Assembly: GCA_016869435.1 (NCBI GenBank)
Contig: VGEB01000001.1
Location: forward strand, 62,001 to 126,000
Direction: 5' to 3'
Source: Alphaproteobacteria bacterium
GTDB lineage: Bacteria; Pseudomonadota; Alphaproteobacteria; Rhizobiales; Beijerinckiaceae
Length of the DNA: 64,000 bases
Shown: positions 7,819 to 32,247 of the stretch, piece after piece
Numbering within the stretch: the first letter of the stretch is position 1
Layout: every line of letters begins with the position of its first letter
Program-made: the position numbers and the translations under genes
The notes under the pieces: model-generated
The model's input: only the letters and a program-made list of their open reading frames with translations
The model's database searches: none
Told to the model about the DNA's origin: nothing

Positions 7819-8050
7819 CCGCCGCGACGACGAAGCCTTCCGGCGGCGCAGAATTAAGCTTGGGCGCCGCAGCGCCTTGAATCGATTGTTTGCGTACACC
7901 ATTTGCGTTAGCGGGGCCGCCGGACGCGATCGTCGGCGGTCTCTTATTGGCGCGACAGCGGCGGGCGACCGTATCGCGGCCTTAAACCCTAATCGCCTGC
8001 GGTCTCGCGTCGCCGCTGCAGCGGGGCGTGGTCAATGACAGGACAAGAAA

Positions 8051-10480
<2,430 letters not shown>

Positions 10481-17342: not shown

Positions 17343-17455
17343 CGCGCTTTCCGATCAGACGGAATCGTCTGATCGATAAGAAATCGCGCCAAATTAACAG
17401 GCTGGAGCAAGTTCTAATCGAAAAAGTCGGTCAACTTTTTCGGAACTTGCTCTAG
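17340..17455. repeat. 116-bp double-palindrome repeat, copy 1
   Basis: CGATCAGACG-GAAT-CGTCTGATCG, then nested GAGCAAGTTC-TAAT-CGAAAAAGT-CGGTCA-ACTTTTTCG-GAACTTGCTC; second copy at 29213-29328. Confidence 0.95.
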
Positions 17456-27976: not shown

Positions 27977-29215
27977 GTGACGAAGCATAAGAGCCTAGAG
28001 GATTATGCGGCAAGGCGGTTCCGTTTCGCCGGCAACGCCTTGCTGGAGTTCAGCGATCCGTTTTTCGCGCAGATCGACCGGCTGCGGGCCGAGTTCGAGG
28101 CGCAGGGCAAGCACTTCGTCAGCTTCGCCAATTACGACTATCTCGGCCTCGCGAATCATCCGCGGATTCGGGAAGAGGCGAAGCGCGAAATCGATGGGCT
28201 CGGCATCGGCGCGCTGGCCTCGCGGCTTGTCGGCGGCGAGCGGACGACGCACAAGCCCTTCGAGGCGGAGATCGCCGAATTCTTAGGGATGGAGAGCGCG
28301 CTGACGCTGGTCTCCGGCTATCTGTCCAATGTGACGACGATCGCCTGGCTGATGAGCGGCAAGCGCGACGCGATCTTCATCGACGAACTCGCCCATAACA
28401 GCATCGTCGCCGGCGCCGACGGCGCGCCGGCGCATGTCGTCAAGTTCCGCCACAATGACTTCGATCATCTCGATCACCTGCTGGCGCGTCATCGCGAGGA
28501 ATATCGCAACGTCCTGGTCGTCGTGGAGGGCGTCTACAGCATGGACGGCGATACCGCCGACCTGCCGCGGCTCCTCGCGATCAAGGAGAAATACAAGGTC
28601 TGGCTGCTGGTCGACGAGGCGCATTCGCTCGGCGTGCTGGGCGAGACCGGCCGCGGCCTTCCCGAATATCAGGGCGTCGACCCCGCGCGCATCGACCTCA
28701 TCGTCGGCACCATGTCGAAAACGCTCGCTTCCTGCGGCGGCTATGTCTGCGGAAAGAAGCAGGTCATCGACTGGTTTCGCTATACGCTGCCCGGCTTCGT
28801 CTACAGCGTCGGCCTGTCGCCGGTGATTCTCGCCGCCGCGCGCACCGCGCTGCGGCTGATGCAGGAAGAGACCTGGCGCATCGCCAAACTCGCGAGCAAC
28901 GCCGAACTCTTCCGCACCGTCGCGCATGAGGCGGGCTTCTCCACGGGGCCGGCGATCGGGCGCGGCGTCGTGCCGATCCTGTTCTCGAGCGACGTCGAGA
29001 CGATGTGGGCGTCTCAGCATTTGCTGGAGAACGGCTATTACGTGCCGCCGGTGGTGCGCATCGGCGTGCCGAAGGATGGGCCGAGGCTGCGCTTCTTCTT
29101 CTCCGCCAACCACAGCGAGGCGGAAATTCGCGGCGTCATCCAGACGCTGCGCGACATGCCGCCGGTGACCGAAGAGGCGCATCAGATCGTCGCTGCGGCG
29201 ATGGCGGGCGGTTAG
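27977..29215 (+). CDS. spt: Alpha-oxoamine synthase, probable serine palmitoyltransferase
   Basis: FANYDYLGLANHPRIR, VVVEGVYSMDGDTADL, LLVDEAHSLGVLGETGRG, VGTMSKTLASCGGY (PLP Lys); followed by acyltransferase, desaturase and hydroxylase genes; GTG start. Confidence 0.8.
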   Translation: MTKHKSLEDYAARRFRFAGNALLEFSDPFFAQIDRLRAEFEAQGKHFVSFANYDYLGLANHPRIREEAKREIDGLGIGALASRLVGGERTTHKPFEAEIAEFLGMESALTLVSGYLSNVTTIAWLMSGKRDAIFIDELAHNSIVAGADGAPAHVVKFRHNDFDHLDHLLARHREEYRNVLVVVEGVYSMDGDTADLPRLLAIKEKYKVWLLVDEAHSLGVLGETGRGLPEYQGVDPARIDLIVGTMSKTLASCGGYVCGKKQVIDWFRYTLPGFVYSVGLSPVILAAARTALRLMQEETWRIAKLASNAELFRTVAHEAGFSTGPAIGRGVVPILFSSDVETMWASQHLLENGYYVPPVVRIGVPKDGPRLRFFFSANHSEAEIRGVIQTLRDMPPVTEEAHQIVAAAMAGG

Positions 29216-29328
29216 CGCGCTTTCCGATCAGACGGAATCGTCTGATCGAAAAGAATTCGCGCCAAGCTAATAAGCTGGAGCAAGTTCTAATCGAAAAAGT
29301 CGGTCAACTTTTTCGGAACTTGCTCTAG
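29213..29328. repeat. 116-bp double-palindrome repeat, copy 2
   Basis: Same length as copy 1 with 6 substitutions, none in the palindrome arms. Confidence 0.95.
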
Positions 29329-29392
29329 GCGCCCGCCACCCGCGTCACTTTGACGCTTTCGGTTAGGCCTTGCGGCCGCTAGGACTTGTCTT

Positions 29393-30607
29393 ATGGCGCG
29401 GATCGAGATTCTTCCGGTTGACGGCCCATTGCGCTTTGCTGCTTTTTGCAAGCTGCCGCGGCTGCTCTATGCCGGCGCGCCGGGCTTTTCGCCGCCCCTC
29501 GACGTCGAACGCTGGAGCGTCTTCGCGCATAAGCTCAACCCGCATTACAAGCTTGTCGAGGAGCAGAAATTTCTCGCCCGCCGCGACGGCCAATGGGTCG
29601 GGCGGATCATGGCGCAGGTCTATAAGCCCGAGATCACGCCGGTCGGCGCCTCCAACGCGCAGTTCGGCGCGCTCGACGCGATCGACGATATCGAGGTCGT
29701 GCGCGCGCTGACGCAGGCCGCCGAGGACTGGCTGCGCGCCAAAGGCGCCGAGCGGATCAACGGACCCTTCTCGCCGACGATCAACAAGGAGTGCGGCCTG
29801 CTTGTCGACGGCTTCGACTCTCTGCCGATGTTTTTCATGCCTTGGCATCCGCCCTATCTCGCACGCCATATCGAGGCGCTGGGCTATGAGAAGGCGCAGG
29901 ACCTCCTCTCCTATCGCTTCGAAATTTCAAGCGCGGACATCGACCAGCCGGCGCGCATTTCGACGCGTCGCGAATGGCGCAATCGCCTGAAGCTCAGGCC
30001 GCTCAACATAAAGGCGTTGAAGAAGGGCGAAACCGCCCTGATGGCGGAACTGTTCAACGACGGCTGGAGCGGCAATTGGGGCTTCGTGCCCTTCACCAAG
30101 GAAGAATTTGATTCCGACGCCGACGCGCTGCAATTTCTCGTGACCGAGGATTTCGGCATCGTCGTCGAGCTTGACGGCGTCCCGCAGTCCTTCGCCGTCG
30201 CGCTTCCCAATCTCAACGAGATTCTCGCTGACCTCGATGGCCGATTGTTCCCCTTCGGCTGGGCGCGCGCGCTGATGCGCTATCGCTCGCATCACTTCAA
30301 ATCAGCGCGGCTGCTGTTGCTGGGGACGCGCAAGACGCTGCAGAAAAGCGCGACCGGCGGCGCGATCTTTCTCGCGCTGATCGAGGAGATGCGGCGGCGC
30401 TACGCCAAATTCGCCGTTCCGCATCTCGAAGCCGGCTGGGTGTTGGAAAGCAACGCCGACATGCGCCGGCCGATTGAAATGTTCGGCGGCAAGGTCGATA
30501 AGATTCATCGCATCTATGAAAAGCGCCTCACTGTCGGCGGCGACGGCGAGGCCATGCGTATGCGCGACGGCGTCAGGGCGACTCAGCTACAGGATGCAAC
30601 GTCATGA
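29393..30607 (+). CDS. GNAT-like acyltransferase, candidate bacterial ceramide synthase (bCerS-like)
   Basis: NPHYKLVEEQKFLARRDGQWVGRIMAQVY and NGPFSPTINKECGLLVDGFDSLPMFFMPWHPPYL typical of the GNAT-like protein found with bacterial spt genes; 4-bp overlap with next gene. Confidence 0.65.
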   Translation: MARIEILPVDGPLRFAAFCKLPRLLYAGAPGFSPPLDVERWSVFAHKLNPHYKLVEEQKFLARRDGQWVGRIMAQVYKPEITPVGASNAQFGALDAIDDIEVVRALTQAAEDWLRAKGAERINGPFSPTINKECGLLVDGFDSLPMFFMPWHPPYLARHIEALGYEKAQDLLSYRFEISSADIDQPARISTRREWRNRLKLRPLNIKALKKGETALMAELFNDGWSGNWGFVPFTKEEFDSDADALQFLVTEDFGIVVELDGVPQSFAVALPNLNEILADLDGRLFPFGWARALMRYRSHHFKSARLLLLGTRKTLQKSATGGAIFLALIEEMRRRYAKFAVPHLEAGWVLESNADMRRPIEMFGGKVDKIHRIYEKRLTVGGDGEAMRMRDGVRATQLQDATS

Positions 30608-31596
30608 ACGGCATATCCGTCACCGCCAATGGCGCCGACCGAACGCATGTCGAGCGGCGCAAGATGATCCTTCAGAAATATCCGCAAGTGCGCGAGCTGT
30701 TCGGCAAGGACCTCTTAACCTTCAAGATCACGGCGGCGATTTTCGTCGGTCAGCTTGTCATCGCAGCGATTTTGGGTTGGCTCGGCCTCTCTTATTGGTG
30801 GCTGTCGCTGGTGATGGCGATCTGCGTCGGCGCCTTCGCCAATCACGCCAATTTCGTCATCATCCATGACGCGATCCACAATTGCGTCTTCGACAGCCCG
30901 CTCGCCAATAAGTGGACGGCGATCCTCGCTGATCTTCCCAACGCCTTTCCGACGGCGATGGGCTTTCGCTGCTATCACATCAAGCACCATTCGCATCTGT
31001 CGGCCTATGACTACGACGCCGACATCCCGAGCCGCTGGGAAGTCGAATGGGTCGGCAACAGCGCCTGGCGCAAGGCGGTGTGGATCTTCTTCTTTCCGGT
31101 CATTCAGCTCGCGCGCCTGTCGCGCCTGAAAGGCACGGTGCCGATCTGGGGAACCTGGACCTATATCAATATCGCGGTCATCGCCCTTTTCGATCTCTTC
31201 GTGCTGCTCGCGTTCGGGCCGAACGCCCTGCTCTATCTGTTCTTCTCCTTCTGGTTCTCGGTTGGCGGCCTGCATCCCTTAAGCGCGCGCTGGCTGCAGG
31301 AGCATTTCGCCTTCGGCCCGGACCAGGGAACGTTCGATTATTACGGTCCGCTGAACAAACTCGCGCTCAACATCGGCTATCACAACGAGCATCATGATTT
31401 TCACGAAATCCCGTGGAACCGCCTGCCGGAACTGAAGGCGATGGCGCCGGAGTTCTATGACGATCTGCGCTGCCATCGCTCCTGGACGGCGCTGCTCGTC
31501 ACCTTCATCTTGGATCCGACCTATTCGCTCGGAACGCGATCGGAAAATGTGACGCAGGCCGCGCGCGACGCGCATGCCCTGTCGCCGGCGGAGTAG
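30604..31596 (+). CDS. Fatty acid desaturase resembling sphingolipid (dihydroceramide) delta-4 desaturase
   Basis: HDAIH, HIKHHSH and YHNEHHDF His boxes; [20 protein letters not shown] N-terminus; [16 protein letters not shown]...[33 protein letters not shown] close to the animal DEGS consensus. Confidence 0.8.
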   Translation: [330 protein letters not shown]

Positions 31597-31599
31597 CCC

Positions 31600-32247
31600 A
31601 TGTCGCAGGACGCAAGAACCGAAGCGCTCGACGCCTCGCCCCGCCTCTTTGAAAGCGATCTCCTCGACAAGCTTTCGCGCGTCCATCATCTGACGCCGGT
31701 GATCGTCTATTGCCCGATCATTCTCGGCCTCGTGATCTATTCGCTCGCGCTCAACGGTCTGGGGCTCGTTATTCTCGGCCTCGCCATTGGCTACATCGGC
31801 TGGACGCTCACCGAATATTTCGGCCACCGCTATCTCTTTCACACGGTGTTCGCGCTCCCCTTCGGATTGGGGCCGCGCTTTCAGTTCCTGATCCACGGCG
31901 TGCATCACATCTATCCGAACGATCCGCTGCGGCTGGTCATGCCGCCGCTGCTCTCGGGACCGATCATGCTGATCGCGCTCGTCTGCGCCCGGCTGATCTT
32001 CGGCGCGACCCTCGCCTGGCCGGTGCTGGCCGGCTTCATTAGCGGCTATGTGATCTATGATTGCGTGCATTACTGGACGCATCACGGCCAACCGAAAACG
32101 GACTTCGGCCGCATGGTGAAGCGGCTGCACATGCTGCATCATTTCCGCGACGCCGAAAAAGGCTTCGGCGTGCATGCGATCTGGTGGGACTATGTGTTCG
32201 GCACGGCCTATCAGAAGGGCGACACGCCGGGAACGCGGGCGGTGTGA
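31600..32247 (+). CDS. Sterol desaturase/fatty acid hydroxylase superfamily protein, FA2H/Scs7-like
   Basis: HRYLFH, HGVHHIYPNDPLRLVMPP, HYWTHHG, LHMLHHFRDAEKGFGVHAIWWDYVFGTA; arrangement like the FA2H hydroxylase domain. Confidence 0.8.
   Translation: MSQDARTEALDASPRLFESDLLDKLSRVHHLTPVIVYCPIILGLVIYSLALNGLGLVILGLAIGYIGWTLTEYFGHRYLFHTVFALPFGLGPRFQFLIHGVHHIYPNDPLRLVMPPLLSGPIMLIALVCARLIFGATLAWPVLAGFISGYVIYDCVHYWTHHGQPKTDFGRMVKRLHMLHHFRDAEKGFGVHAIWWDYVFGTAYQKGDTPGTRAV

Follow-up and report, generated by a model that had tools for sequence, protein, structure and literature searches.

A homologue of the eukaryotic sphingolipid delta-4 desaturase family in a predicted sphingolipid operon of an alphaproteobacterium

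Does an alphaproteobacterium encode a counterpart of the dihydroceramide delta-4 desaturase (DEGS) of eukaryotes and, if it does, what is the origin of the gene? The 4,5 double bond of ceramide is commonly regarded as a hallmark of eukaryotes, and the synthesis of ceramide in bacteria has been presented as a case of convergence with the eukaryotic pathway. The question is raised by an open reading frame at positions 30604–31596 (+ strand) of a 64,000-nucleotide stretch of alphaproteobacterial DNA (referred to below as the window), which a sequence-only reading had described as homologous to this desaturase family.

The open reading frame starts with ATG, ends with TAG, encodes a protein of 330 amino acids (aa) and is present as a single copy in its own 3.16-Mb genome. 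Pfam searches have identified in this protein both the Lipid_DES domain (PF08557; 33.6 bits, gathering score 23, E 2.7e-8) and the FA_desaturase domain (PF00487; 82.7 bits, E 4.8e-23). When scanned one by one, all 35 family members (viz. the window protein and 34 bacterial relatives) contain Lipid_DES, which is found in none of 9 other alphaproteobacterial desaturases, all 9 of which contain FA_desaturase. The FA_desaturase domain of the window protein has the motifs HxxxH, HxxHH and HxxHH and an extra histidine ligand, and the nine histidines expected as ligands of two irons (H88, H92, H125, H128, H129, H234, H260, H263 and H264) show little or no variation among 52 bacterial and 4 eukaryotic members. 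Many further signature residues (e.g., N102, P116, D140, K157, W160, H224, P225, D265, Y285 and S293) are common to the window protein, the 4 DEGS of eukaryotes and no fewer than 85% of the 52 bacterial members, and these DEGS-wide residues are missing in the three nearest non-DEGS desaturases. An AlphaFold2 model of the protein (mean pLDDT 86) has the desaturase/AlkB-type membrane di-iron fold; a fold search with this model returned FtAlkB and two chains from FtsHi motor complexes of chloroplasts, and nothing notable beyond these. A search of the PDB with the protein sequence gave no match, so that no DEGS structure is reachable by sequence, and NCBIfam was found to hold no model for the DEGS family, the only matches there being to carotenoid enzymes and far under the cut-off.

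Provisional sequences of DEGS1 (human), Des-1 (Drosophila) and DES (Arabidopsis), with plausible mutual identities of 54–62%, represented the eukaryotes in the comparison. In BLASTP alignments over about 300 residues, the window protein is 34% identical to this human DEGS1 (E 2e-53), 36% to Drosophila Des-1 and 38% to Arabidopsis DES (E 3e-68); for other bacterial membrane desaturases the highest score with these queries is about 85 bits. The similarity thus extends well past the histidine boxes, as the sequence-only reading had stated, and the three segments which it quoted are all present, at residues 15–32 (18 aa), 222–237 (16 aa) and 246–294 (49 aa). The window protein shares with DEGS1/DEGS2, Des-1 and Arabidopsis DES both Pfam domains, collinearity over the full length and the histidine boxes, including the blocks YYGPLN and GYHNEHHDF; it differs from them in its N-terminus (MNGISV, whereas animal DEGS start with MGxxxS), in its identity of 34–38% to the provisional sequences, in its location in a bacterial sphingolipid operon and in its placement in a different clade of the family. 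Judged by its sequence, the protein belongs over its full length to the family of sphingolipid delta-4 desaturases, and chance is excluded as the source of its likeness to DEGS. The description of the protein as unusually close to animal DEGS holds only in part, since its bacterial relatives from other phyla are 47–54% identical to it, and some proteins from the phylum Bacteroidota are far nearer to animal DEGS (43–49%) than the window protein is. Among named genomes, the best matches, at 93–94% identity, come from Methylocystis (M. rosea SV97, M. silviterrae and a MAG from groundwater), which identifies the host as a methanotroph of the Methylocystis type. A bacterial homologue on a 3.7-Mb contig (L183, positions 7820–8767; Lipid_DES 65.6 bits) is 49% identical to human DEGS1 and much nearer to the eukaryotic enzymes than the window gene.

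The desaturase gene is located within an operon on the + strand. The first of these, at 27977–29215, encodes an alpha-oxoamine synthase of 412 aa that is a probable serine palmitoyltransferase (SPT): its top PDB sequence matches are serine palmitoyltransferases (8guh/3a2b, E 8e-60), with KBL/BioF close behind, and an SPT-like gene is kept at this place in Methylocystis and Beijerinckiaceae. The protein misses the cut-offs of the NCBIfam SPT models (NF047599, 288 of 500 bits; NF047600, 268 of 640; NF047603, 206 of 670) and likewise that of the bioF model (339 of 426 bits). The gene at 29393–30607 encodes a protein of 404 aa that has no Pfam or NCBIfam match, but whose AlphaFold2 model (pLDDT 80) matches the tandem GNAT structures 5kf1, 7q3a and 2wpw (E about 1e-12) and also N-myristoyltransferases; the predicted tandem-GNAT fold would fit a bacterial ceramide synthase (bCerS), and the gene is conserved in the operon. 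This acyltransferase represents a blind spot of annotation, its relatives being abundant in Bacteroidota, Verrucomicrobiota and Alphaproteobacteria. Its stop codon overlaps the start codon of the desaturase (ATGA), and 3 nt past the desaturase stop begins a gene (31600–32247) for a predicted di-iron fatty acid hydroxylase of 215 aa, similar to Scs7/FA2H (PF04116, 59 bits). The nearest solved relative of the latter protein is the yeast ceramide fatty-acid hydroxylase Scs7 (E 8e-24, residues 22–210); compared with yeast Scs7 and animal FA2H, it is a short bacterial form with a single domain.

The order SPT, bCerS-like gene, desaturase and hydroxylase is kept in Methylocystis, where M. rosea and other members have the same operon and flanks, and the first three genes, often without the hydroxylase, occur together in Beijerinckiaceae. 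In Verrucomicrobiota and Acidobacteriota the same four families are found in the order desaturase, hydroxylase, SPT, another gene and bCerS-like gene. Genes for GT2, SDR, MaoC, hotdog, KAS and ACP proteins come after the operon in Beijerinckiaceae and in a Methylocystis MAG, the latter also having a GT21 gene (ceramide-glucosyltransferase family, 150 bits). The genome under study contains this set, with GT21, as an ACP-KAS-hotdog-MaoC-SDR-GT21-GT2 run about 39–40 kb upstream of the desaturase, just outside the window (C1:47585–53462, equivalent to L191 5586–11463; − strand); most of the set adjoins the operon in relatives. The sphingolipid genes of Caulobacter comprise spt, acpR, aasR, cerR and bcerS (PMC11087976, PMC9386255, PMC11324152). 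The genome studied here resembles Caulobacter in having an SPT, a GNAT-type N-acyltransferase and an ACP gene in the associated set; unlike in Caulobacter, a single operon contains the SPT and N-acyltransferase genes together with those for the delta-4 desaturase homologue and the FA2H-like hydroxylase, and the associated set includes SDR and GT21. In another alphaproteobacterium (G341), two LptF/LptG-like permease genes, recognised by eye, lie beside a KAS gene in the desaturase neighbourhood (L031, 862–9034), which suggests a dedicated step of lipid export; a further desaturase gene of this genome stands alone (L032).

The DEGS-family enzyme encoded at 30604–31596, whose gene lies in a seemingly complete gene set for sphingolipid synthesis, probably takes part in a late step of the host's own sphingolipid pathway and introduces the 4,5 double bond into dihydroceramide. 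The analysis establishes its family membership, catalytic histidines, fold and position in the tree, as well as the structure of the operon, the conservation of the neighbourhood across phyla and the co-occurrence with the other genes of the pathway; we infer the substrate, the order of the steps, the position of the double bond and the final glycolipid in the following scheme. The serine palmitoyltransferase would form 3-ketosphinganine, which the SDR encoded about 40 kb upstream would reduce, and the tandem-GNAT enzyme would N-acylate the reduced product to dihydroceramide. The membrane di-iron desaturase, using O2 and an electron donor, would then introduce the 4,5 double bond, the Scs7/FA2H-like enzyme would hydroxylate the amide-linked fatty acid, and the GT21/GT2 enzymes would add sugar. 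The end product is likely a 4-unsaturated, 2-hydroxylated (glyco)ceramide. Lipid data on sphingolipids of Methylocystis were not found in the literature searched; the prediction is testable because Methylocystis strains can be cultivated.

The chief uncertainty concerning this enzyme is desaturation versus hydroxylation at C4. The DEGS family includes a C4-hydroxylating member, DEGS2, and DEGS2-type members both desaturate and hydroxylate. In Caulobacter, the amide-linked acyl chain of sphingolipids is reportedly hydroxylated by an enzyme of the DesA desaturase/hydroxylase family (PMC11324152). For both of these reasons a match to the family fixes neither desaturation nor its position, and both lend some weight to an enzyme that mainly hydroxylates C4 of the sphingoid base, leading to phytoceramide-type lipids. 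We nevertheless consider this unlikely, as a dedicated hydroxylase gene lies directly downstream and the third histidine box of the window protein reads YHNEHHDF, which we take to be the form in DEGS1 and Arabidopsis DES, and not YHVEHHDF as in DEGS2 (these reference sequences are provisional, and the weight given to the residue is a guess). Less likely still is a desaturase for another amide-linked or a glycerolipid acyl chain, sited in the operon so as to tailor the fatty acid of ceramide. An identity of 34–38% to eukaryotic DEGS would leave room for an altered substrate, and some members of the family from Bacteroidota and Alphaproteobacteria (L032, L067 and L183) are located away from other sphingolipid genes; against this stand the universal presence of Lipid_DES in the family and the retention across phyla of an operon with SPT and the N-acyltransferase. 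Desaturation of dihydroceramide at the 4,5 position is the reading that we prefer.

The distribution of the family was examined in four samples of genomes, counting DEGS-type matches at E<=1e-10, with each sample including one genome that was known beforehand to carry the gene and is counted. So defined, DEGS-type genes are present in 32 of 346 genomes of the Bacteroidota sample (out of 33 matches under the threshold, one was a weak desaturase of 28% identity), 4 of 399 genomes of Pseudomonadota (two further weak matches are non-DEGS desaturases), 3 of 195 of Verrucomicrobiota and 7 of 199 of Acidobacteriota. SPT-like genes were found in all 9 of the desaturase-containing genomes examined for them, and bCerS-like genes in 8 of 8. 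Among Bacteroidota, 26 of 31 genomes with the desaturase have a strong bCerS-like match (E<=1e-45), versus 8 of 20 without it, which is an association and not exclusivity. A viral source of the desaturase was also considered and rejected: neither the window protein nor human DEGS1 had a relative in IMG/VR when this was scanned, and a viral fold library gave only general giant-virus desaturases at weak scores.

The origin of the gene was addressed with a maximum-likelihood tree of 59 proteins (LG+C20+F+G4, PMSF), which was rooted on three other desaturases. In this tree the DEGS family, including the window gene, is separated from ordinary acyl-lipid desaturases with support of 100/100, in agreement with the sequence-only reading. 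The window gene is part of a 9-row clade from alphaproteobacterial methanotrophs (100/99), which sits inside a larger bacterial clade with members from Verrucomicrobiota and Bacteroidota. The four eukaryotic DEGS join four proteins from the Bacteroidota sample (L129–L132; 100/99), the best of which, L129, is located on a 3.7-Mb bacterial contig and is 49% identical to human DEGS1.

The motif-level likeness to animal DEGS had raised the question of whether the gene was transferred from eukaryotes. A recent horizontal transfer from a eukaryote to Methylocystis is extremely improbable, and is firmly excluded by the tree: the window gene is nested within the alphaproteobacterial clade, and constraining the eukaryotes to group with the Methylocystis clade gives a tree 99 log units worse, which is rejected (p-AU 2.3e-7). 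At the sampling used, the nesting and the AU test refute such a transfer. The desaturase also has a GC3 of 0.795 and codon use like its neighbours, and its operon and flanks recur in M. rosea and other Methylocystis.

The second possibility raised, that the gene stands near the bacterial root of the enzyme of eukaryotes, applies at most to the family as a whole. Eukaryotic DEGS have their nearest bacterial relatives in a few genes of the Bacteroidota sample and not in the window gene. Eukaryotic DEGS appear to branch from within the bacterial family; a constraint uniting all bacterial members without the eukaryotes is 22 log units worse and is rejected more weakly (p 0.0027, to be read loosely because the constraint groups were picked after a quick tree was seen). 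The root is a long branch, and the sampling covers bacteria and four provisional eukaryotic DEGS but no Asgard archaea; therefore, the tree only favours a bacterial source of eukaryotic DEGS, without proof, while a recent transfer from a eukaryote to Methylocystis is firmly excluded. A transfer from a eukaryote into the L129–L132 lineage is possible. We tentatively propose, as a scenario that is plausible but may well prove wrong, that ceramide delta-4 desaturation was a bacterial invention, that DEGS diversified in bacteria, often in sphingolipid operons, that eukaryotic DEGS came from a bacterium related to those with the Bacteroidota-type L129–L132 genes, and that 4-unsaturated ceramides are made today by methanotrophs, Verrucomicrobiota and others.

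The window desaturase is a member of a known enzyme family. The literature searched, which does not extend to most subscription papers, contained no description of a DEGS homologue encoded in a bacterial sphingolipid operon, and priority is not claimed. If bacterial DEGS are indeed encoded in sphingolipid operons and eukaryotic DEGS branch from inside this bacterial family, at least one step of the pathway would be homologous and not convergent. The bacterial DEGS family also bears on the origin of eukaryotic sphingolipid genes, for which a 2026 study in Nature has reported a global Asgard association of sphingolipid metabolism (PMC12872458).

Two intergenic elements lie between the SPT and bCerS-like genes. 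The first is a palindromic repeat of about 113 bp (29216–29330, + strand), which is not part of the pathway and matches 25 places in the genome, including two within the window (29216–29330 and about 17343–17455). It contains two strong palindromes, the intergenic RNA fold has z = -6, and M. rosea has a short intergenic gap at this site without the element; it is a REP/MITE-like mobile repeat inserted between the two genes. The second is the inverted repeat GCGTCA-CTT-TGACGC (29342–29356, + strand), just upstream of the bCerS-like gene, which recurs, with an altered loop, in five relatives of the Methylocystis type and represents a candidate operator or attenuator of the unit formed by the bCerS-like, desaturase and hydroxylase genes.
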